Positions 820-44,198 of a stretch of 46,017 nt of DNA are shown here, piece by piece; position 1 is the stretch's first letter, and the number at the start of each line of letters is the position of its first letter. Location of the stretch: contig JAGWBW010000019.1 of the NCBI GenBank assembly GCA_021295695.1, positions 1 through 46,017 on the forward strand, written 5' to 3'. Both the position numbers and the translations under genes were made by a program. The DNA comes from Candidatus Latescibacterota bacterium (GTDB lineage Bacteria; Latescibacterota; UBA2968). Below the pieces are notes generated by a model. The model did not search any database, was not told the DNA's origin, and saw only the letters and a program-made list of their open reading frames with translations.

Positions 820-2544
820 TCAGAGTTCTCGGTTGATCAGAACGATGGTGAAGACCAGCGATGCAACAGAACCGAGCATTGCAATGACTTCTCGCGTGAT
901 GCGATAGCCCTGCCCCGGCACGATTGCTTGCGTGGGAACCACAATCGCGTCGCCGGGACGCACGAGAGATTCTGATGTGGCAGGTATGGCATTGCCCGTA
1001 TTGCCCTCAATAATAATAATATCTTTTCGTTTTGCACGCGTGTTAAAACCGCCAGCAAGGTCAATATAACCGCCAACCGTTAGCACCGCATCGTAGGGAA
1101 TATTCGCAGGTGCGACGACCGCACCTGTCACGCGCACAGAAGATACAAATCTGGGAATGCGAACGACATCGCCATCTTGCAGGAGGATATTGTGCCGCTC
1201 GTCGCCGGCCATGAGCGCTACAAAATCAATGGGCAAACGCCCTGAAAATTGCTGGGTTTTGAGGGTAATGAGGGCCTCTTCGGCATCGGTGCGCTGTGAG
1301 CGGGGAATGCCGAGTAATCGGTTGAGCGCGGGATCATCTTCGATGGTCTGTTCTTCAAAATTGACTTTGCGAATAAGAGACGCCTGAACTACGGATGCTT
1401 CGGGTGTGAGTTCGGCCTGCTGTAATAATTCCTTGAGACGAAGCCCCTCTTTAAAAGGAAAAGGTCCAGGGAATTTTACCTCGCCTTCGACATAAACCCG
1501 TTTTGTTTCGCCAATAACATAGAGTTTATCACCCGCTTGTAAAGTGAGATTCGCCTGGGGATCACCTGCAAGCACACGAGGGAGATCAATGTCTATGGAT
1601 GTCCAATCGCTATCATCCGACAAGCGCAAAAGATGGGCACGCTTTGGGGGGGAATGGGCACGCAAACCATTCCCAAGAATAATGAGATCAGCCACGCGGT
1701 CACCGGGTGCAAATTCATAGCTGCCCGGGTATTTCACTGCACCTGTGACATAGATGGAATCACTGCGAGCAACGGGTACCACAATTTGTTCTCCATCGAG
1801 TAAGAAAGGATTGTACTGCGCCTTACCAGTGCGGTTCCATAGCTCGAGATCTATCCTGCGTCCCGTATTGTGCCATTGTCCATTTTCATCGAGACTCATG
1901 ATCTGGATATTGCGGCTGGAGCCTTTGCGGTTAAAATCATCAATGAGGCCCCCGGCTTTGGTGATGAGTTGCGATGCCTGTTCGACACCTTCAACGTCAA
2001 CGGCTCCTGGCATGTGTACTTCGCCAACCACGTTGATGGGAAATGTGCGAAGGCGCGCGAGGCCGATGGAGATATCGAGTTGATGAAAGCGTTTTTTTAT
2101 AGCTGTCTGGATAGCCTGGTTGGCTTCTGTAAGCGATAAAAATGCAACGGAAACAGGTCCAACAGACGGGAAAAGCAAACTACCGCTCGCGCCGACAGGC
2201 ACTTCAAAAGTCTCGATTTCTTCCCCTCTATTTACAACCACGGCAAAAACATCCCCCGGTCCGACAATATAGCGACCCGAGCGAATAACCGCATCATAGG
2301 CCGCTTTGCCAATACTTTTGATTTCAACCGGTGGTGTGACTTCTTTTTCTGATTCTTCGGGAACAAGCGTGGTAAAGGGCCTGGGAGATGAACGTTCGGA
2401 TTTTTCCTCGGCTTGACGTGCAGTGCGACGAGATTGCGCGTGTGCGGCTAAAGGGTAAAACGCAAAGTCAAAAATGAGCAAACCCACGAGCGCAAAATAA
2501 AAAAACCGCATATAGCGTCCCGGATATGCCATAGAGATGATCAT
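820..2544 (-). CDS. Wza-like polysaccharide export protein with SLBB repeats
   Basis: A 574-residue secreted protein. A hydrophobic signal peptide ends near AAHAQ (about residue 37). A polysaccharide-export domain follows, beginning at RYIVGPGDVFAVVV, and then SLBB-type beta-grasp repeats that each start with a V.GEV/V.GAV..PG pattern: INVVGEVHMPG, IYVTGAVKYPG, VYVEGEVKFPG and a more divergent VRVTGAVVAPA. The C-terminus has one hydrophobic helix (about residues 552-570), comparable to the outer-membrane-spanning helix of Wza. The protein probably forms the periplasmic and outer-membrane channel for polysaccharide export, with the downstream Wzz-like protein as inner-membrane partner. The first ATG overlaps the stop of thrB by 4 bases (ATGA). 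ATGs at codons 5 and 12 are also possible starts, and codon 12 gives a tidier signal peptide. Confidence 0.88.
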   Translation of the reverse strand: MIISMAYPGRYMRFFYFALVGLLIFDFAFYPLAAHAQSRRTARQAEEKSERSSPRPFTTLVPEESEKEVTPPVEIKSIGKAAYDAVIRSGRYIVGPGDVFAVVVNRGEEIETFEVPVGASGSLLFPSVGPVSVAFLSLTEANQAIQTAIKKRFHQLDISIGLARLRTFPINVVGEVHMPGAVDVEGVEQASQLITKAGGLIDDFNRKGSSRNIQIMSLDENGQWHNTGRRIDLELWNRTGKAQYNPFLLDGEQIVVPVARSDSIYVTGAVKYPGSYEFAPGDRVADLIILGNGLRAHSPPKRAHLLRLSDDSDWTSIDIDLPRVLAGDPQANLTLQAGDKLYVIGETKRVYVEGEVKFPGPFPFKEGLRLKELLQQAELTPEASVVQASLIRKVNFEEQTIEDDPALNRLLGIPRSQRTDAEEALITLKTQQFSGRLPIDFVALMAGDERHNILLQDGDVVRIPRFVSSVRVTGAVVAPANIPYDAVLTVGGYIDLAGGFNTRAKRKDIIIIEGNTGNAIPATSESLVRPGDAIVVPTQAIVPGQGYRITREVIAMLGSVASLVFTIVLINREL

Positions 2545-3440
2545 GTGACTGTGGCTCCCGATGGATCAACTTTGAGGATCTGATAACGCGCCCGTATGTT
2601 TTTTTTCGCCCAAATACCGATCATAGCCTGTCCGATAGCGTCGGCATTTTGGGTTGTAAGCGCGACGAGTGTTGGCCCCGCGCCCGAAAGCGCGGCCCCC
2701 CATGCCCCTGCGTTGACCGCCTCTGCGAGTATCTGATCAAAGCCCGGAATGAGTTTCGCCCGATAGGGGTGATGCAAACGGTCTTGCATGCCAACGGCGA
2801 GATGCTCAAAATTTCCCGTGATCAGCGCTGCGGTAACAATGCATGCTCGGCTTGTGCTAAAAACGGCGTCACGATGAGAAATGGTATTGGGCAAGACATT
2901 GCGGGCATCTTCTGTTTTGAGTTCAAATTCGGGAATGGCGACCACGGCGCGCAATTCTTTCGGTGGCAGCGCGCGCACGCATGCAACGCGGTTGTCATTC
3001 ATAGTAGAAGCAGTGAAGCCGCCGAGCAAGCAGGGCGAGACATTGTCGGGATGGCCTTCAATAGCCGTGGCAATATCGAGCATCTCCATCTGTGAAAAAG
3101 GTTCACCTAAAAGACAGTTAGCCGCAATAACACCGCCAACAATAGCCGTTGAACTGCTGCCCAATCCCCGGGCGAGAGGCACGGTATTGTGCATGTGGAT
3201 ATCGATTCCGGGCAATATTTTTTCTGCCCGTTGGGCGGTAAATTGCGCGGCGCGATAGAAGAGATTCACCTCATCAGCAGGCAAAATACCCTTGCCTTCA
3301 CCTTCAATGCGAAACGACAAGCCCGGTTGGGAACGAATCTTTACCGCGACATAATTGTAAATGGACAAAGCCATACCCAGGGCATCGTAACCTGGGCCAA
3401 GATTGGCAGTGGAACCGGGTAGGCGGATGCGAAATTCCAT
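2541..3440 (-). CDS. thrB: Homoserine kinase
   Basis: A 299-residue GHMP-family kinase that phosphorylates homoserine with ATP in threonine biosynthesis, in the cytoplasm. The N-terminus RLPGSTANLGPGYDALGMAL is the usual ThrB opening. The glycine/serine-rich phosphate loop is at ARGLGSSSTAIVGG, preceded by the N..P..RGLG context of the family, and the C-terminal GHMP motif is GAWGAALSGAGPTLVAL. Length fits the family (about 300). It starts directly after the hemW stop with no gap and overlaps the next gene by 4 bases, so it is translated from the lepA transcript. No other threonine gene is nearby, so the linkage to lepB/hemW is likely positional rather than functional. Confidence 0.93.
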   Translation of the reverse strand: MEFRIRLPGSTANLGPGYDALGMALSIYNYVAVKIRSQPGLSFRIEGEGKGILPADEVNLFYRAAQFTAQRAEKILPGIDIHMHNTVPLARGLGSSSTAIVGGVIAANCLLGEPFSQMEMLDIATAIEGHPDNVSPCLLGGFTASTMNDNRVACVRALPPKELRAVVAIPEFELKTEDARNVLPNTISHRDAVFSTSRACIVTAALITGNFEHLAVGMQDRLHHPYRAKLIPGFDQILAEAVNAGAWGAALSGAGPTLVALTTQNADAIGQAMIGIWAKKNIRARYQILKVDPSGATVT

Positions 3441-4544
3441 CTATAGTTCTCTAACGAGTTCAGAGCATACCAGATCGGCGAGCAAGAGACCTCGCCGCGT
3501 CAGGCGGACGCGGTTGTCAGTTCGTTCCAGCAAGTGCTGGTTTGCCATCGCGATATACTGTTTGTGAATTTTGGGATGGCTCAAAAAATCTACACGGAGT
3601 CCCCGGCGCTGGCGCAACCCCAGCATAATGCGTTCCAGCAGATGCTGCGTCGGTGTGAGTTGTTCCACTCTTTCCACTGCAAATCCGGTTGCCTCAATGC
3701 GCTGCATATAAGTTGCGAGATCGCGCACATTCCAGGATCGCCGATTGTCGAGATACGAATGTGCAGACAAACCAACGCCCAGATAAGGGCGATCATGCCA
3801 GTAGTTGAGATTGTGACGCGACGCAAATCCCGGTCGGGCAAAATTGGAAATTTCGTAATGTGCGTATCCAGCAGCTTCGAGTTGGTCAATAGCAGACATA
3901 TACATCTCGGCCTGGTCGGTTTCAGGCGGCACCTTCAATCGCCCCTTTTGAAAGCGGCGTGCAAAATTGGTCCGGGGTTCAATCGTGAGACCATACACGG
4001 AGATATGTTCAGGATACAGGTCAATAGCCCGTTCAAGACTCCTTGCCCATTCTCCCGGTGTCTGTCCCGGCGCGCCGTACATAAGGTCGATACTTATATT
4101 CTTAAACCCCGCATTGCGGGCGGCGTGAAACGCCGCTGTCGCATCTGATACCGTGTGAAATCGACCGAGTGCTTTGAGTGCGCGATCTGTAAATGCCTGC
4201 ACGCCCAGACTCAAGCGGTTGATGCCGTGTTCATATAATTTGTCAAAGTATCTGTGGTCATTTGGATTGGCCTCCGCCGTAATCTCTGCATCGGGAGCGA
4301 TCGCATTTTCCGCACTTGTCAGAATCCGATTCAATTGTCCAGGCGGTATTGCCGAAGGCGTACCGCCCCCAAAATACAGCGTATTGAACATGGGTGGCGT
4401 TTCGAGGGATTGCATGCGGTTTTGCATCTCTACAATCACCGCATCCGTATAGCGCTTTGCCAGATGATTTTTGCCCACGACAAATGCAAAATCGCAATAC
4501 GGACAACGAGAGTGACAAAATGGGATGTGGATGTAAAGGCCGAT
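3441..4544 (-). CDS. hemW: HemW-type radical SAM heme chaperone, apparently without an ATG/GTG/TTG start
   Basis: This is a coproporphyrinogen-oxidase-like radical SAM protein of the HemW family, thought to carry or insert heme. The reading frame opens right after the lepB stop with His, Ile, Gly, Leu, Tyr, Ile, His, Ile, Pro, Phe and then the [4Fe-4S] motif C-HSR-C-PY-C, the family signature. GGGTPSAI, the ANPND substrate region and SLGVQAFTDRALKALGR follow. The only usual start in frame is a GTG at 4478, which lies after the cluster cysteines and would remove them. Between the lepB stop and the cluster I see only one plausible start, an ATC at 4544-4542, 6 bases after GGAG. I placed the start there, giving 367 residues with cysteines 10, 14 and 17. 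A sequencing error or a stop-codon readthrough from lepB are alternatives. Family identity is secure; the start is not. Confidence 0.85.
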   Translation of the reverse strand: MGLYIHIPFCHSRCPYCDFAFVVGKNHLAKRYTDAVIVEMQNRMQSLETPPMFNTLYFGGGTPSAIPPGQLNRILTSAENAIAPDAEITAEANPNDHRYFDKLYEHGINRLSLGVQAFTDRALKALGRFHTVSDATAAFHAARNAGFKNISIDLMYGAPGQTPGEWARSLERAIDLYPEHISVYGLTIEPRTNFARRFQKGRLKVPPETDQAEMYMSAIDQLEAAGYAHYEISNFARPGFASRHNLNYWHDRPYLGVGLSAHSYLDNRRSWNVRDLATYMQRIEATGFAVERVEQLTPTQHLLERIMLGLRQRRGLRVDFLSHPKIHKQYIAMANQHLLERTDNRVRLTRRGLLLADLVCSELVREL

Positions 4545-4547
4545 GTG

Positions 4548-5237
4548 TCACTCCACGAGCATGCCAATGCGCTGCCAGCGCACGCGCTCTGGAAAATGGA
4601 ACAAATTATAGATCGCGATACCGATTAGAGACGTCACGTTGCCATATGTGGGGACACGATCATCTGGTGCCCAGGACCAGTAGAGCATAAATGCTTTCCC
4701 CCGAATGAGGTCGCGCTTGAGAAAGCCCCAGTATCGACTGTCTTCACTGCTGTCGCGGTTGTCGCCCATCACAAAATAGCAGTCTTCGGGCACGATCTTA
4801 GGCCCGTAGTTATCCCGCGTATTGGCCACCGACCTCCGTTGGAGAATAACAGAATCTATATATTTGGCTTTGGACGGATCTATCGCGCGTTTATCGTCAA
4901 CATAAAGGATTTTATCTTTTATTTCAACTTTCTGTCCAGGACCTGCAACAATGCGTTTGATAAAATCGCGGGATGGATCTCTGGGATACTGAAAAATGAC
5001 AATATCGCCGGGATCTGGCGAGCGCCACGCAGGCAGGCGAATGTCGGTAAAGGGAATGCGAGCGCCGTAAATAAATTTATTCGCCAGCAAAAAATCTCCG
5101 ACCAGCAAAGTGTTTTCCATCGATCCCGAAGGAATGCGAAATGCCTGTACGACAAATATGCGAATAAAAAGCGCGAGTGTAAACGCAAGCAAGATGGCTT
5201 TGATATATTCAATAGTCACAGATTTTTTTTTGGGCAT
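4548..5237 (-). CDS. lepB: Signal peptidase I
   Basis: A 229-residue type I signal peptidase that cleaves signal peptides on the outer face of the inner membrane. One N-terminal membrane helix lies around residues 9-30. The catalytic serine is Ser39 in IPSGSMENTL and the general-base lysine is Lys94 in DFIKRIVAGPGQ. Box E, VMGDNRDSSEDSRYWGF, is complete. The ATG at 5237 was chosen because it follows GAGGAAA just after the lepA stop; a longer frame back to 5378 would only read through the lepA end. The lepA-lepB order is common in bacteria. Confidence 0.94.
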   Translation of the reverse strand: MPKKKSVTIEYIKAILLAFTLALFIRIFVVQAFRIPSGSMENTLLVGDFLLANKFIYGARIPFTDIRLPAWRSPDPGDIVIFQYPRDPSRDFIKRIVAGPGQKVEIKDKILYVDDKRAIDPSKAKYIDSVILQRRSVANTRDNYGPKIVPEDCYFVMGDNRDSSEDSRYWGFLKRDLIRGKAFMLYWSWAPDDRVPTYGNVTSLIGIAIYNLFHFPERVRWQRIGMLVE

Positions 5238-36487: not shown

Positions 36488-36526
36488 AAAAAACAAACGC
36501 GGGCTTCTTCAAAGAAACCCGCGTTT
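36488..36526 (-). terminator. Intrinsic terminator of the Spy-like gene
   Basis: A 9-bp stem (AAACGCGGG at 36495-36503 with CCCGCGTTT at 36518-36526). On the minus strand the stem is followed by GTTTTTT, and it sits 40 bases after the Spy-like stop codon. Confidence 0.8.
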
Positions 36527-36565: not shown

Positions 36566-37066
36566 TTACTCTCCACCACCGCCGCCACCGCCACCACCGC
36601 CACGACCACCGCCGCGACCACCTTGCCCGCCGCGTTGCCCGCGCTGCCCGCGCTGGCTCATCCGCTGCATCTCTGCTTGAAATACCTTTGTCTGATCCTC
36701 ATTGAGAATAGCAGTCAGACCTTGTGTCATTTCCATTCGCAGTGCGCGCACTTGCTGCATCGCCGCCTGCTGGTCGTTGCTACCGCGCAGGCTTCTTTGC
36801 AATTCCTGGCGTTTTGTATAAACCCCTTTAAGTGACGCACGCACCTTGACGAGTTGCTCATCGCTCAGAGCCACATTCTCGTTAAACGACAGATAAGACA
36901 GCACTTGTTCAACCGGCAAAAAACGCTGCACCTGAACGCCCCCGCGCTGCCCTTGCCCACGCTGCCCTTGACCTTGACCACCTCTTTGGGGCTGTGCCCA
37001 CACATCGCAGGACGCGGCCATAAGCATTGCCACTGCCAAAAAACCGAAGAGTCGAAACCTCTGCAT
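36566..37066 (-). CDS. Spy/CpxP-like secreted protein with Gly/Arg-rich ends
   Basis: A 166-residue exported protein. The signal peptide is MQRFRLFGFLAVAMLMAASC, possibly a lipoprotein signal with Cys20, or cut after VWA. Residues 26-45 are a GQGQRG repeat. The middle (about 48-135) is helical with two LT..Q-like segments, LSDEQLVKVRASLK and LNEDQTKVFQAEMQRM, as in Spy/CpxP periplasmic chaperones. The last 30 residues are RGQRGQRGG, then a run of about ten glycines. AAGGAG precedes the ATG at 37066. The core suggests a periplasmic chaperone or stress sensor; the low-complexity tails are unusual for the family. Confidence 0.7.
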   Translation of the reverse strand: MQRFRLFGFLAVAMLMAASCDVWAQPQRGGQGQGQRGQGQRGGVQVQRFLPVEQVLSYLSFNENVALSDEQLVKVRASLKGVYTKRQELQRSLRGSNDQQAAMQQVRALRMEMTQGLTAILNEDQTKVFQAEMQRMSQRGQRGQRGGQGGRGGGRGGGGGGGGGGE

Positions 37067-37101
37067 AACCTGCTCCTTTGAAAGGGTTAAAAAATGCCTA
37101 T

Positions 37102-37149
37102 AAAAATCCGGGCATATATCGCAACAAATTAGACGATACATGCCCGGAT
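37102..37149 (-). terminator. Long-stem terminator after the OPT transporter gene
   Basis: A 16-bp stem with one G-U or mismatched position (37106-37121 with 37134-37149) and a 12-base loop. The minus strand continues with TTTTTA. It separates the transporter transcript from the Spy-like gene 35 bases on. Confidence 0.82.
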
Positions 37150-37173: not shown

Positions 37174-39228
37174 TTAGAACACCACTTGAGACACGGCTTT
37201 GGATATCAACGCCACAGCAATTGAAGTCATGCCAATAAGCCCCATGCCGCAGGAATAACCCGCTACTAAAATAGGCGCGTAAGCCTTCCATTTGGACTCG
37301 CCAAACCGCTTTTGAAAATGATATCGCCCCAGCATCGCCCCGGCAAAATTCAAAATGACAAAGTGCGGCCATTGCGCCAGACCATTCACAAAACCGAAAA
37401 ATGCCAGCACGGGGACCTTGGCTGCGACCAGTACCAGATAGAGAAGTCCACCAGAAACCAGTCCTGTGAGAATGTATTTGGGGATGATAATTTCTCTTAA
37501 AAGATCCATACCTACGGCACCCTGTACTTCTCCGGGCGGCATAGTCGATTTAAGCCATACGGTTTGCATCGTGGCTTCATAGGGCCAAAATAGCTGGACA
37601 TAAGGATATGTGGAAGATGGAATGGGTCCCAACCGCCAGATAAACTCATAGAATATAAAGCTGCAAATGAAAATCACAAACATCGTAACCACGACCATTT
37701 TGAGATAACTACCGATCTTTGTCTTGGTCAATTCCAGTTGCTTAAACTGCCGCACAGCCAGCCCGTGGTCGTGCAGAGGAATGGGGGCAAACCACACCGC
37801 CACACCTTTATAACCAGACAGCAAAATGGCCGCTTCCCGAATAAAGGGAATGCTCGCCCCATAAGGACTGCCCGTAAGACCGATCATCCGTGCACCGATA
37901 TAAGACGAAACAGGCGTATAAATAAATGCGAAGAAAACCAGCCATCCCCAGTGAAACTCTGGCACGAGCCACTGGCACAGTCCAATGGCGGCAAAAGAAG
38001 CCATAACCCACAAAACAAGGGGCCACTTCATCGGCATATCACCCCGGCCCTCGGGCAAATCCTCCATACTAATGTTTATCGAATGATGTCCTGTCTCCTG
38101 TTTGAGCTTGCGCTGTTCCAGCAGAGTTTTGCCTATCATATAAAAACCGGTGAGTGCGATCACGATTGAAGTACCAATCCCAAAGCTCAGCCAGAAATCG
38201 AAACGATTGGAAATACTTGCGGGAATCGCCGTCATACCCGGTGCCCATCGGGTCAAAATTTCATGGTGATAAAGGACTGGATTAATTACCAGATTGGCAA
38301 GCACAGCACCGATAAACGATCCCACCACCACGTAAAACGGCAGGACAAAACCATACAATAAATGCCCCAAATCCGTTCCTATGCCAAACACGGCAGCGGG
38401 CAATATGGTCTTTACCTCGGCTGTAAAATCGATAAATGGAATGGGCAGAACCTGAACGGTCTCAGTCAGAAAAATGCCCGACAACGTGGGCACAACCACA
38501 TAGAGCAATCCCCACACCAGACCAATACACGTTCCCGTGCTAAATACGCGCCACCGCCAACCCTCGGTTTTGGCCGATGTTTCAGCCAGTGCGGTGACAC
38601 CCCGTGCTTGAACAGGCTCCAGCGGAAAAGGCAATTGCTCGATATCGCTGGTAATGCGGAACATCACATACCCAAAGGACAGCCGCGCAGCCTGATTGAT
38701 AATCATGACCAGAAACAGAATCAACACCGGCAAAATCCAGTCGGGATGCACAAACGTGCGCTCGGCATAAACTGGCGAATCCAGAGGCGGCGTCACCCAA
38801 TTTGGGATATAACTATCCAGACCTTTTGCCGCGGGTGACTGAATCAAATACTGATCCCAGATCAGCCCTCCAAAAGGCCCGCCGTATAGATGTGCACCAG
38901 ATCCGAGTTTTACCCCAATCCCCAACAGCCCTGCAGCGACCCAATAGATGATCAAAATTTCCTGTGTCCTGAGCCGAACAAAAGAGCGCTTGGCTATCTC
39001 TAAAAAGAGAATAATCGTCACCCACTCAGACGCACCGGCCATGCTCTGCCCGGTCACCAGGCCCAAATAAATCGCTCCCGGTAACATAACAATCCCAACG
39101 AACGCCGTCGCCCATATCGTCTTCCAGCCAAAGCCATCCTCAAAAGGCGCGTCCTCTGGCATAATCTGTTCGTATTCTGTCAGATCCTCTTTTGTTTCTT
39201 CTGTATCTCTTGGTTCGTCAGTTGCCAA
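37174..39228 (-). CDS. OPT-family-like membrane transporter (DUF6784/DUF6785)
   Basis: A 684-residue membrane protein with about fourteen hydrophobic helices. The first reads WATAFVGIVMLPGAIYLGLVTGQSMAGASEWVTIIL. Pieces such as ALISKAVSQVVF at the end and SYIGARMIGLTGSPYGASIPF in the middle fit the oligopeptide/siderophore transporter (OPT) superfamily group annotated as DUF6784 and DUF6785. The cytoplasmic N-terminus (about 30 residues) is acidic. The start is a TTG with GGGAGG five bases before it. It lies 37 bases after the giant peptidase-like/FtsX gene and shares its transcript. The substrate may be a peptide or metal chelate; this is inference. Confidence 0.78.
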   Translation of the reverse strand: MATDEPRDTEETKEDLTEYEQIMPEDAPFEDGFGWKTIWATAFVGIVMLPGAIYLGLVTGQSMAGASEWVTIILFLEIAKRSFVRLRTQEILIIYWVAAGLLGIGVKLGSGAHLYGGPFGGLIWDQYLIQSPAAKGLDSYIPNWVTPPLDSPVYAERTFVHPDWILPVLILFLVMIINQAARLSFGYVMFRITSDIEQLPFPLEPVQARGVTALAETSAKTEGWRWRVFSTGTCIGLVWGLLYVVVPTLSGIFLTETVQVLPIPFIDFTAEVKTILPAAVFGIGTDLGHLLYGFVLPFYVVVGSFIGAVLANLVINPVLYHHEILTRWAPGMTAIPASISNRFDFWLSFGIGTSIVIALTGFYMIGKTLLEQRKLKQETGHHSINISMEDLPEGRGDMPMKWPLVLWVMASFAAIGLCQWLVPEFHWGWLVFFAFIYTPVSSYIGARMIGLTGSPYGASIPFIREAAILLSGYKGVAVWFAPIPLHDHGLAVRQFKQLELTKTKIGSYLKMVVVTMFVIFICSFIFYEFIWRLGPIPSSTYPYVQLFWPYEATMQTVWLKSTMPPGEVQGAVGMDLLREIIIPKYILTGLVSGGLLYLVLVAAKVPVLAFFGFVNGLAQWPHFVILNFAGAMLGRYHFQKRFGESKWKAYAPILVAGYSCGMGLIGMTSIAVALISKAVSQVVF

Positions 39229-39265: not shown

Positions 39266-42200
39266 TTATGCTATTGCCGCGACTTCGCCAGACAAAACCC
39301 GGCGTCCGTCTTCTGCATAATTGAACTTCATGTCGCCCGGGATAGTACGCCAGACCAGGAATCGCTTTCGCAACACATTCAAAAACCCGCGATTGATCCG
39401 TTTCCAGGACGCCACATCGCCACTCAGGCGATTGATCACCACTTCAATTTTATAAATATTGTGCTCACCCGTTGGAATGGCTTTTAACTGCACTTCCTGG
39501 CTGATTCCCAGATCATAAGGTGCCAACCATGCCGTCAGGTCAATATTGTATTGCGGTTCTCCCTCGTGATCCTCAGACCAGAACTTCACATGATCTGCAA
39601 CAAAATCACCCACCGACCCCTCGCCATAAGATTCAAAAACCCGGGTCAAATAGGAGTACATGCCCAATACCTCGGCACCGCCTACGGTAAAGGGAAAATC
39701 AAATATCCACCTGTCACCATCTGGATCGGGAAATTCCCATTTGCGGGTCACATCCGGCACAGCCATATCCGCAGCTTTCTTCGCTGGATAAAGCGCGGAG
39801 AGAAATACGGTTGCCATCACAATCAACGTGGCGGAAATTGCAGACAGGGACGAATAATTTAATTCCAGGCCACCCAACAATCCCTCATTGTAAAGTACGA
39901 GCACGAGCACTTGTCCAATCAAATATCCCATAACCGCACCGAGTGTGGCAAATACGCCGGCCTCCGCGAGGAAAAGTGCAGCAATATGATTGGGAGCCAA
40001 TCCCACTGAAGAATAAATACTGATCTCCCGGAACCGCTCATACACAGCACCCATCATAGTATTGAGCACAATGAGTGCCGCAATCAAGATCGGAATAAAC
40101 AAATTGCCCAATCCAGAAAGCGCCGTTGAACCAATCGAACTATAAACGGTTACGCCATCATCCTTACCCACAAACATCGTCAAAGACACGCGCGCCATAA
40201 ACTCTTCGATATCGGGGACAAAATTCAACTTGGGCTGCCCGCTCTCATCCTTAAAATTCGCAATCGCCACCGAAGCCAACACACCTCCGATATCCCGAAT
40301 ATACTCATAGGGCACGACAAGTACATTGGTCGATTCCAAATGGGTAAAGGTCTCAATAGGCGCAGCCGCGACGACCCGCGGGTCCTGATCCTGTGCATCT
40401 GCCAAATCGTCTTTTTCTTTTACCGTATCAACAGGGGTCAGTTTTTCATCATCCAGATCTTTGAACTTGTTAAACATTTCAGAATCGAGAATGCCAATTA
40501 CTGTAAAAACCTGTCCCTGCATTTCAATTTTAGCCGTTCCTGCATCTTCGGGAAAAATACCGACAAGCTCGGCCAGATCATTTGGCAACAGGCAAACAAA
40601 CTCTTCCCCGGGTTCAAACCATCGCCCGCTCATCAAATAGCGATCAACCCCGGTAATTTTGGGTTCGTCTGGCGTAAGCCCCAGCAACGCATTGACAAAA
40701 CTGTCTTTCCCCGTGGTAATGCCCACATCAAAATCGACGTAAATCTCCTTGGGACCCATATCAGCGGTGGCCTCTGTCACGCGAGAAAAATTCACATAAG
40801 CGCGCTCGCCCCGAACCTGTGACAAATACCACGATCGCGGCACAATATCGGCGCGGCCTTTAAAAGCACTATGAAGATAATTGAGGACAGATTCCTGCAT
40901 CCCCCGCCAGGATCGGTCGCGCACGAGTGCCCCCTGATAAGATGGCTCATTGTCGCGGGGCAATTTGTAAAACTTCAACGAAGTCTGCACCGAGGTAAAA
41001 GACAGGGTCGTAAACGTCAATAAGGTCAAGGTAATCGCCGTCAACCCCGTGCGCATGGGACGCTTTCGCAGATTTGAAATACCCAGCACAACCGCGGCCG
41101 ATGTCGCGCTAATGCGCCCGACATCGGCTTCATAAGTCCCGGCAGAAGCCTGTTTCATTTTGCGGACTTCATCGCCAAACTTAGATACCACAATGACCAT
41201 TGCCACACCGCCGAGAGCCATAATCACAAATGCGAGAAAAATAATATAGGGAGAATTGCTCAACTGAAAAGCCGGATGGACAACGCGCAGAACGATAAAG
41301 AAAAATACAAAAAACGCGGCAAACCAGCCCAAGCGCGCGGTAATACTCGACGCGCCAATCAACAACCGCTCGCAGAAAAATGAAAACGGCAACAACAAAA
41401 TAAAGTAAAAAATAATCCCCCGCACAGTATCATTGGCAGTAGCCATCACTTCGGGATACCCCCGTGCCTCCAGCCCCCACGCCCGCCGAGATGCAGCCAT
41501 AAACCCTTCGTAATCAAAATTTTCAAGGTGCTGACGCGCTTCGATCAGTGCCTCGCGCGCGCTGTTGTGCAACAGAGTCAGACGATTGTTTTCAATACCA
41601 AATTGCGCTAACTGTTTCATCCGCACATCGTCAATCACCCACATATCTTTGGCGGCCTGATACGAGGGCGTGAAAATGACGCCGGGTTCATATCCTACAC
41701 CTCGCGCCTCTTCCAGAAGATCGGGATTTACCTCGCGTTTATCAACCGGATTATCCAAAAACTTCTGGGGCGCATTGATCAACAAATACTTAACACCAAA
41801 TAATCCCGTGCTCATCAAAACTTTCAGCCGCTCGGCTTCTCCTGTGTGTTCATCCACGCGCGCAAACGTCACAGCAGCGCGTGTCACATCGCCTTCTTTG
41901 GTGCTTTGCCCAGGTAAATACGTATAGCCAAATTCTATAGGTTGCGTATCGTTGTCATTGAGCACCGTCATAAAATCGAGTGCCGACAAATAGCTCGAAT
42001 CGATAATTTCGAAAACACTGATGGAGCGGCACCTGAACAGAACCGTCAGCATTTCATTTTCCCACCAGCCATATCGCTGTGTCAGTGGGAATTTTTTGTC
42101 GCCCTCAGTTCCCATGTCGGGTGCCGACGTAATATTTCCCTCTTCGTCAATATCATAAGCCAAAATGCGATTGGTAAATCGATTTCGCATGATATTGAAG

Positions 42201-44119
42201 AAAAACCATCCGGTTTCCTTTACCTTATTTTTATCGCCAAACAAATTTAGATCTACATCTTCTATCTGATCGTCTGCCAATTTATCGATATCGTAAATGG
42301 GACCTTCTGTCGTCTTGTCAATAATCAGCGTCCTCACACCCGCGCAACTGTGAACATTGCCCGGCTGCCGATACGTCGCAACCCCACCGGGCACGGGCAC
42401 GCGAGGCAACGCGAAATCGACATTGCGATCAAACCACAATACCTGTCCTCTCAAACTGTGCCCTCGATCTTGCAATTTGAGTTTGGATACCCTGAAAAAT
42501 TCGGGGTCTTCACCCGCTTTCATCATGGCAGCTATCGCCGTTTGGACCTGGCGCGTCAAATTGTCCATATTGACATTCTCAACGCGATCAATGGGCGTAT
42601 CGACAAAACGCCGCACTGTTGATGGCGTCGCCAGTGTAATACCTTCTTTCCCAACAAAAGTAACGGCCTCGCTGTCAAACCCCAGACGAATGGGCATAAA
42701 ATTTTTCCATGTGCGTTTTGGCGGTGCAATTGCATCGACATGGCGCACTTCTTCGCCCGGAAATACTTTGGCCATATATTTATCAAATTTGTCCGCATAA
42801 GGTGCCAACAGATTATTCAAATAATTGTCGGTCTGCCAATTTGGGTTGTTAAAGGTGCCGTGTGAAAAGCTCGCCAACTCATCGGATTCACTCGACAGGT
42901 CTAAGCCGATGAATAACCGGAAATCAATTTTATAGCTATCGGGAATAAGTTCTTCAAAATCTTCGCTTTCGCGCGGAATAAGTTCGCCATCGAGATACGC
43001 ACCGGCAACCGATACACTATCGGGAATCTTATCGCGGAAATGATCGCTTTCGCGCGAATGCCGATACACAAAATCATTGATACCCGCCAGGCCCTGAAAA
43101 TGAGAGCCTGTTGCCAAAAAGGTCACCGAATATTTTGGCGGATGCTGTTTCAAAACGCGGGCAGTATGCAAAAGTGCAGCCATCCCCGACGCATTTTCAG
43201 CACCTGGCGCGAGAGCGGGTACAACGGAAATGGCATCGTAAAAAGCACTCAGCACAATTTGCTGGTCTTTCCACTTGCGCTCTTCGCGCTCTGTAATATA
43301 GTCTTCGGACCCGGGAAGGGTTGCAAAAATATTCCAGGTCGGCACCTCTTCCCAATCCATCTTTGACATTAAACGCACTTCGGGCGATTGCGTTTGGGCT
43401 AATTCGAGCAAGCGCAAAGCATCGTCTTTTTTGACCCAGAACCGGGGCACATCAACGGGCACGGGTAAAAACTTATCCAGCGCCTGGCCCTGTGTGACCC
43501 GCCCATTGTCATAAAATAAAATGGCCTGTGCCCCCAACATACGCGGGCTTAAATAGCTCTGGTCACAATCGAAATCCATTATGACAACGCTGCCTTCGAC
43601 CTTTTTGCCATTGAGTTCTGAAAAAGAACCCTTGCCCCCATAAATAAGCGCCCCCGAAATCCCAGCGCTGGGCACAGAGGGCGTTTGTACATGGTTGGGC
43701 CAAAAACCGTAGATCGCAATTTCTTCGCCGGTATCCATCAAAGTAAGTGAAGCACCTTTGTCAATGGGAACCGTTACCGTGTGCTCTTCGACCTCAATGT
43801 CTTCGAGACCAATTTGCTCAAAATGCTGTTTGACATATTCAAAAGCCCGCAGATGCCCCACATAGCCGGGCACCCGAGACCCCATCCCCGACAGGTCGGC
43901 AATGATTTGGTGCACATCTTCTTGTCTAATGGACTCGGCAATGGACCGAATTTCCCGATCGCGTTCTGAAATTTCAATGGGTTTGAGTTCGGGAATACTC
44001 GGTTTAATATTAAAAAGCGTTACAAAAAAATCCGTCACCTGTCCCGGATTAAAAATGGTCACCGAAGACAACATCAAAATTGTGATAATCCAGAGAATAC
44101 CTGTGCCGATTTTACGCAT
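39266..44119 (-). CDS. Giant M28-peptidase-like (degenerate) and FtsX permease fusion protein
   Basis: A 1617-residue membrane protein. Order: N-terminal membrane helix (8-35); M28 peptidase-like domain with an inserted PA domain (about 60-535); beta-rich region resembling a carboxypeptidase regulatory domain (550-760); further soluble part; three hydrophobic helices (901-980); FtsX/MacB permease half starting NLRKRPMRTGLTAI (1017), a large periplasmic loop, and helices ending in the FtsX block YERFREISIYSSVGLAPNHI with SALYPAKKAADM; then a C-terminal soluble domain. The zinc site of M28 looks lost: the first ligand block is AFYDA instead of HxD, GAND(D)NASG is GAENASG, EE is GSH and the final histidine block reads FVDTPIDRVENVN. 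It may bind rather than cut peptides. No ABC ATPase gene is adjacent. It has its own promoter and is followed by an OPT-type transporter. Confidence 0.85.
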   Translation of the reverse strand: MRKIGTGILWIITILMLSSVTIFNPGQVTDFFVTLFNIKPSIPELKPIEISERDREIRSIAESIRQEDVHQIIADLSGMGSRVPGYVGHLRAFEYVKQHFEQIGLEDIEVEEHTVTVPIDKGASLTLMDTGEEIAIYGFWPNHVQTPSVPSAGISGALIYGGKGSFSELNGKKVEGSVVIMDFDCDQSYLSPRMLGAQAILFYDNGRVTQGQALDKFLPVPVDVPRFWVKKDDALRLLELAQTQSPEVRLMSKMDWEEVPTWNIFATLPGSEDYITEREERKWKDQQIVLSAFYDAISVVPALAPGAENASGMAALLHTARVLKQHPPKYSVTFLATGSHFQGLAGINDFVYRHSRESDHFRDKIPDSVSVAGAYLDGELIPRESEDFEELIPDSYKIDFRLFIGLDLSSESDELASFSHGTFNNPNWQTDNYLNNLLAPYADKFDKYMAKVFPGEEVRHVDAIAPPKRTWKNFMPIRLGFDSEAVTFVGKEGITLATPSTVRRFVDTPIDRVENVNMDNLTRQVQTAIAAMMKAGEDPEFFRVSKLKLQDRGHSLRGQVLWFDRNVDFALPRVPVPGGVATYRQPGNVHSCAGVRTLIIDKTTEGPIYDIDKLADDQIEDVDLNLFGDKNKVKETGWFFFNIMRNRFTNRILAYDIDEEGNITSAPDMGTEGDKKFPLTQRYGWWENEMLTVLFRCRSISVFEIIDSSYLSALDFMTVLNDNDTQPIEFGYTYLPGQSTKEGDVTRAAVTFARVDEHTGEAERLKVLMSTGLFGVKYLLINAPQKFLDNPVDKREVNPDLLEEARGVGYEPGVIFTPSYQAAKDMWVIDDVRMKQLAQFGIENNRLTLLHNSAREALIEARQHLENFDYEGFMAASRRAWGLEARGYPEVMATANDTVRGIIFYFILLLPFSFFCERLLIGASSITARLGWFAAFFVFFFIVLRVVHPAFQLSNSPYIIFLAFVIMALGGVAMVIVVSKFGDEVRKMKQASAGTYEADVGRISATSAAVVLGISNLRKRPMRTGLTAITLTLLTFTTLSFTSVQTSLKFYKLPRDNEPSYQGALVRDRSWRGMQESVLNYLHSAFKGRADIVPRSWYLSQVRGERAYVNFSRVTEATADMGPKEIYVDFDVGITTGKDSFVNALLGLTPDEPKITGVDRYLMSGRWFEPGEEFVCLLPNDLAELVGIFPEDAGTAKIEMQGQVFTVIGILDSEMFNKFKDLDDEKLTPVDTVKEKDDLADAQDQDPRVVAAAPIETFTHLESTNVLVVPYEYIRDIGGVLASVAIANFKDESGQPKLNFVPDIEEFMARVSLTMFVGKDDGVTVYSSIGSTALSGLGNLFIPILIAALIVLNTMMGAVYERFREISIYSSVGLAPNHIAALFLAEAGVFATLGAVMGYLIGQVLVLVLYNEGLLGGLELNYSSLSAISATLIVMATVFLSALYPAKKAADMAVPDVTRKWEFPDPDGDRWIFDFPFTVGGAEVLGMYSYLTRVFESYGEGSVGDFVADHVKFWSEDHEGEPQYNIDLTAWLAPYDLGISQEVQLKAIPTGEHNIYKIEVVINRLSGDVASWKRINRGFLNVLRKRFLVWRTIPGDMKFNYAEDGRRVLSGEVAAIA

Positions 44120-44169: not shown

Positions 44170-44198
44170 ATGCTAATAAATAACTTTCGAGATGTCAA
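44170..44198 (-). promoter_or_regulatory. Promoter of the peptidase-like/FtsX gene
   Basis: On the minus strand TTGACA (44198-44193), 17 bases, TAGCAT (44175-44170). Transcription would start near 44163, about 44 bases before the ATG at 44119. AGGAG lies 8 bases before that ATG. Confidence 0.68.

Follow-up and report, generated by a model that had tools for sequence, protein, structure and literature searches.

A family-wide replacement of the di-zinc site in an M28-like domain joined to a type VII permease, and its OPT-like neighbours in Latescibacterota

What use does a bacterium have for a peptidase fold that lacks its metal site and continues, in one polypeptide, into a permease? The question is raised by a gene of a Candidatus Latescibacterota bacterium (contig JAGWBW010000019.1, assembly GCA_021295695.1), lying in the 46,017-nucleotide stretch of DNA that was analysed here and is called the window. 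An earlier note, made from the letters of the sequence, had described a 1617-residue open reading frame at 39266-44119 as an M28 peptidase fold without zinc ligands joined to an FtsX-type permease, and had proposed a peptide-binding sensor. These coordinates are exact and the frame, on the minus strand, is real: it begins with an ATG preceded by an AGGAG ribosome site, the five other frames of the interval contain 25-91 stops each, Pfam matches to M28 and FtsX exceed their cut-offs and full-length homologues exist. The fusion protein is under strong purifying selection, with dN/dS of 0.06-0.12 in the M28 part and 0.01-0.04 in the permease part, values which rule out a decaying pseudogene. Full-length orthologues in many MAGs, single-contig ones included, likewise rule out a frameshift, a chimera or an assembly artefact. 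A viral or plasmid origin was also rejected, as viral contigs hold no relative and plasmids carry only ordinary M28 and FtsX proteins.

The gene does not stand alone. Upstream of it a consensus scan finds a promoter-like site, TTGACA-17-TAGCAT (44170-44198, minus strand), which scores 10/12 and is weak evidence by itself. Downstream, after 37 bp and probably in the same transcription unit, lies a gene for a 684-residue OPT-like transporter (37174-39228, minus strand), a conserved neighbour of the fusion gene. It is followed by the probable third gene of the unit (36566-37141, minus strand), the product of which has no Pfam match, is Q/R/G-rich and probably secreted, and keeps its position throughout the genus. 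A scan places a terminator-like hairpin, with a 14 bp stem and a T-rich tail, just beyond it (36495-36526, minus strand), and the whole looks like a three-gene unit.

The fusion protein begins with a transmembrane segment at residues 4-22 (44054-44110, minus strand, as are all features of this protein), seen in the hydropathy profile and as a helix at 2-22 in the structural model. Residues 56-545 (42485-43954) form a PA-containing M28 aminopeptidase-like domain, recognised by fold search, by a PDB profile search and by profile-profile alignment with an intact M28 enzyme. The Pfam Peptidase_M28 match spans residues 282-442 (E 9.8e-9, above the cut-off). The fold search returned the Aneurinibacillus structure 2ek8 (E 1.7e-21) and the Bacillus YwaD/BSAP structure 6hc6 (1.2e-19), then TfR1 and GCPII, and the profile search, built on 18 homologues, gave 2EK8 and YwaD first and then transferrin receptor and nicalin. 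The domain has the M28 fold with the PA insertion of the YwaD/2EK8 group, its best matches by fold and by profile. The model of the N-terminal half has a mean pLDDT of 65 and a pTM of 0.67, with values of about 80-97 across residues 50-140 and low confidence in the pocket segments around 400-510.

The metal site was followed through the family, gathered from Latescibacterota genomes, aligned and thinned to 59 members with less than 90% identity. As reference ligands we take, in Aeromonas aminopeptidase numbering, H97, D117, E151/E152, D179 and H256, against which the window protein has F293, E308, H340 and F341, D407 and S483. Not one of the 59 members has an intact di-zinc site, so that its loss, to judge by this alignment, is fixed and old; the earlier note had held that homologues with intact ligands would speak against such a loss. 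The H97 column holds Y in 45 members, F in 9 and H in 4, and the D117 column E in 58/59, an assignment of E308 that crosses a one-residue gap. At E151, the catalytic-base position, 58/59 have H, and at E152 there are 37 F and 20 H; a subfamily has HH at the EE columns. D179 is the sole ligand position retained (D in 57/59); the earlier note had left out this fifth ligand, kept here as D407. The H256 column reads S in 41 members, G in 13 and H in 2. S483 was placed in it, the column of the M28 SDH histidine, by a profile alignment with an intact Peribacillus M28 protein anchored on the invariant G490, the GLP glycine, and lies within D482-S483-E484. The motifs quoted in the earlier note do stand at the residues given for them, but VDTPID (506-511), taken there for the final zinc-histidine column, aligns with the downstream M28 motif 'YHSPEDTLEKI' and was rejected for that role.

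This protein thus lacks the full set of an active M28 metallopeptidase, zinc-binding H, D, E, D, H together with the catalytic Glu. On the alignment, the lost ligands are replaced by a new conserved set, E308, H340 and E484 (50/59), with R503 (58/59) and D511, which like D295 is present in 59/59; S298 is found in 56/59. Because these replacement residues are so tightly conserved, the pocket looks rebuilt rather than decayed. One 1943-residue paralogue (L076 2258-8089, genome G016) keeps little of the new motif: it reads APFDAG, with Q for H340 and no D507.

A rebuilt pocket could also be a rebuilt active site, in which case the N-terminal domain would still be an enzyme that cuts peptides before OPT-like uptake, for example with a single metal bound through E308, D407 and E484, or without metal, through H340 and S298. 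The strong conservation of H340 in the catalytic-base column, of E308, D407, D295, S298 and E484, and the existence of the HH subfamily, fit such an enzyme. A precedent exists in YbbAP-TesA, where a type VII permease with many transmembrane helices works with a periplasmic hydrolase-fold protein; in that system TesA, an active GDSL enzyme, is a protein of its own, and YbbP is duplicated and has two coupling helices (PMC12646458). We nevertheless regard a surviving enzyme as unlikely, since all canonical ligand columns but one are changed and conservation of the new residues could as well reflect a part in structure or in ligand binding; with the segments around 400-510 modelled at low confidence, no geometry can be read from the pocket.

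Use of the M28 fold for binding rather than cutting has precedents of its own in transferrin receptor 1, nicalin and nicastrin, which are pseudo-M28 receptors. TfR1 and nicalin are themselves among the profile matches of the fusion protein, although these receptors are eukaryotic and have no permease.

The permease lies beyond a region, residues 546-890 (41450-42484), that from its position and a low-confidence model is presumably periplasmic; a paralogue (L099) shows a weak match to PF13620 CarboxypepD_reg (E 0.0014) that bears on this region. Three transmembrane helices follow at residues 898-977 (41189-41428), recognised by hydropathy and as model helices, and then a type VII permease core at residues 1012-1470 (39710-41086), consisting of one transmembrane helix, a periplasmic core domain and three further helices. 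The core assignment draws on PF02687 (FtsX, residues 1341-1451, E 7.8e-13, above the cut-off), on PDB profile matches to YtrF, MacB and LolC, on fold matches and on conservation. The fusion of an M28 fold to an FtsX-type permease, as first described, is thus borne out. The last domain, residues 1481-1617 (39269-39679), is conserved in the alignment, predicted to be cytoplasmic and modelled mostly at pLDDT of about 70-86. The model of the C-terminal half as a whole is poor (pLDDT 48), its only significant fold matches being LolE, the MacB-like permease 5xu1 and the heme exporter 7w7a, and it is too weak to back anything beyond the type VII assignment.

Between its transmembrane helices the FtsX domain carries an ER..EI coupling segment, AVYERFREI.IYSSVGLAP.HI, which is near-invariant in the family. 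Hydropathy gives eight transmembrane helices in all (one N-terminal, three at 898-977, one at about 1021-1044 and three at 1334-1443), and this succession of one and three, then one and three, is how two type VII halves would be arranged, with the M28 domain at the place of the first core domain. Sequence carries no signal of an internal duplication, as hhalign finds no homology between the two halves, and a duplication can therefore be suggested from topology only. The duplicated permease ADOP of NCBIfam gives a weak match to the fusion protein.

What the permease might serve is indicated by its neighbours. Several orthologues of the OPT-like gene exceed the PF03169 cut-off in a whole-genome search (best 5e-13); the window copy has no Pfam match, nor did hmmscan produce one for the alignment members. 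In profile-profile comparison with OPT the family scores 37, where a reversed control scores 20, a modest excess, and we regard the downstream gene as OPT-like, a possible and remote member of OPT. The OPT-like and DUF6785 families are in turn related (94% probability over 200 columns, reversed control negative). The partners are thus described here as members or look-alikes of the OPT family (PF03169) and DUF6785/DUF6784. The DUF6785/DUF6784 membrane family, which is transporter-like, is unusually expanded in the phylum, most Latescibacterota having at least 19 scored copies per genome and up to about 60 first-look candidates.

The fusion family occurs in 59/64 Latescibacterota genomes, often as several paralogues, and is absent from family f7 (4 genomes) and from one incomplete genome. 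DUF6785 is found in the same 59/64 genomes and the OPT-like partner in 58/64. Fusion protein, DUF6785 and OPT-like genes are all missing from f7; as f7 is one clade, this co-absence is one event and gives weak support to a link between them. Gene order is stronger support: in 62/70 loci with flanks an OPT-like or DUF6785 gene is fused or lies no more than 1.5 kb away in the same orientation, and in 45/70 an OPT-like gene is directly downstream, although these loci include close relatives and are not 70 independent cases. In the window genome both OPT-like copies adjoin a fusion gene. Furthermore, in two genera (L097 and L099) the fusion protein runs in frame into a full DUF6785+DUF6784. Only these two fusions are confirmed, two more (L081, L095) having proved to be overlapping, out-of-frame reading frames. 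A third paralogue in the window genome (L030, G000:C130:296-4814) is split over the frames 296-1186 and 1047-4814 by a frameshift or an assembly error, its relatives being single-frame.

These partners were missed when a peptide sensor was first proposed, and their constancy, in operons or in the same polypeptide, makes a receptor or gating subunit within a transport system likelier than a free-standing sensor. In its fuller form the sensor reading holds that the pseudo-peptidase senses a peptide, or a fragment of the cell wall, and that the permease passes the signal on, as in BceAB-type systems or FtsEX, the transporters being merely co-regulated targets. Type VII permeases are known mechanotransmitters (PMC5985334, PMC12646458), and the conserved, predicted cytoplasmic C-terminal domain of about 130 residues would suit such a role. 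Among the annotated neighbours in the gene maps, however, no regulator is constant; the constant partners are transporters, and with fused forms in existence physical coupling fits better than signalling. We consider the sensor rather unlikely.

Is the machine driven by ATP? There is no ABC ATPase at the window locus, as had been noticed at the outset, but an orphan ATPase of MacB/LolD type is encoded elsewhere in the genome and, by the search across genomes that the earlier note had proposed, in other Latescibacterota. ABC ATPases, of two types, A and B, occur in the fetched flanks of 6/70 loci and are absent from those of 64/70. Type A, the orphan, has no permease neighbour at any of more than 30 loci examined; it occurs in f1-f3, f6 and G002, and f4 has a relative that is likewise an orphan. 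In G020, from a related family, the order type A, DUF6785, fusion, OPT is found on one strand, with about 750 bp from the ATPase to DUF6785, and in the window genome type A and a paralogous fusion gene are 19 kb apart on contig C128. The families f8-f10, which do carry the fusion protein, yielded type B alone, so type A cannot be the obligate partner everywhere. The sister type B always lies beside a 233-residue FtsX protein without a periplasmic domain, which rules it out as a plain partner. At G010, G012 and G015 (f8/f9) this pair follows the fusion and OPT genes, about 4 kb further downstream. Pairs of type B and the minimal FtsX protein (L137 1495-2987, L138, L017, L206, L214 and others) occur in nearly all fusion-carrying genomes.

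Absence of an ATPase from the flanks of 64/70 loci, and the weak ADOP match, would be expected if the permease half were an 'orphan' permease acting as an ATP-free scaffold, the ATPases belonging to other systems. That reading seems to us quite improbable: the segment which docks ABC domains in the type VII fold is among the most conserved parts of the protein, and the orphan ATPase is itself conserved and linked to paralogues. From this linkage and the near-invariant docking segment, a partner encoded in trans is likely, and for the window protein it would be of type A or type B.

The reading that we prefer, tentatively and at slightly less than an even chance, is that a type VII machine equipped with a pseudo-peptidase receptor works for OPT-like transporters. 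It builds on features read directly in the genomes: the domain make-up, the fixed loss of the zinc site, the operon and fusion link, and an orphan ATPase linked to paralogues. The fusion protein would be the central component of an envelope machine resembling type VII ABC systems, in which the periplasmic M28-fold part, its di-zinc centre replaced, would bind a substrate instead of cutting it. Fold and OPT-like partner together suggest a peptide, a peptide-like compound or a metal-chelate nutrient. The FtsX/MacB-type half would recruit the MacB/LolD-type ATPase in trans and pass ATP-driven motion to the periplasmic domain, which would deliver the substrate to, or gate, the adjacent OPT-like/DUF6785 transporter. 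Ligand binding, the ATPase pairing and the direction and purpose of transport are what we infer here, as is, from gene order and the fusions, the coupling of fusion protein and transporter. A bolder version, which we think doubtful, would see an ATP-driven type VII ABC machine built physically onto a secondary OPT-like transporter, with an M28 domain turned to use as its substrate receptor. Such a hybrid, combining primary with secondary transport, would be without a described precedent and would have spread by paralogy through the whole phylum.

Each part of the system is known and, provisionally, the combination is new, the genomes compared being those of Latescibacterota and the literature searched partial. 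2EK8 and YwaD/BSAP differ from this family, which lacks the di-zinc site in all members and is joined to a permease. MacB, LolC/E and YtrF have the FtsX core and coupling motif in common with it, whereas the fusion protein has a giant M28 ectodomain, extra transmembrane helices and OPT-like partners, and no ATPase gene of its own. YbbAP-TesA is the nearest in concept, but a YbbP-like duplication with two coupling helices was not detected in the fusion protein. In the literature searched we found neither an M28 or ABC-type partner of OPT, DUF6785 or DUF6784 proteins nor, within that partial coverage, the combination of M28, type VII permease and OPT-like protein.

The evidence is pointing to an undescribed machine for nutrient uptake or transporter gating. 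If this is true, serving or gating OPT-like transporters would be a new job for type VII ABC systems, the fusion protein would provide a bacterial example of an M28 pseudo-enzyme as receptor, and DUF6785/DUF6784 would gain a first functional lead. For the uncultured Latescibacterota themselves, it may offer a lead on how nutrients are taken up.
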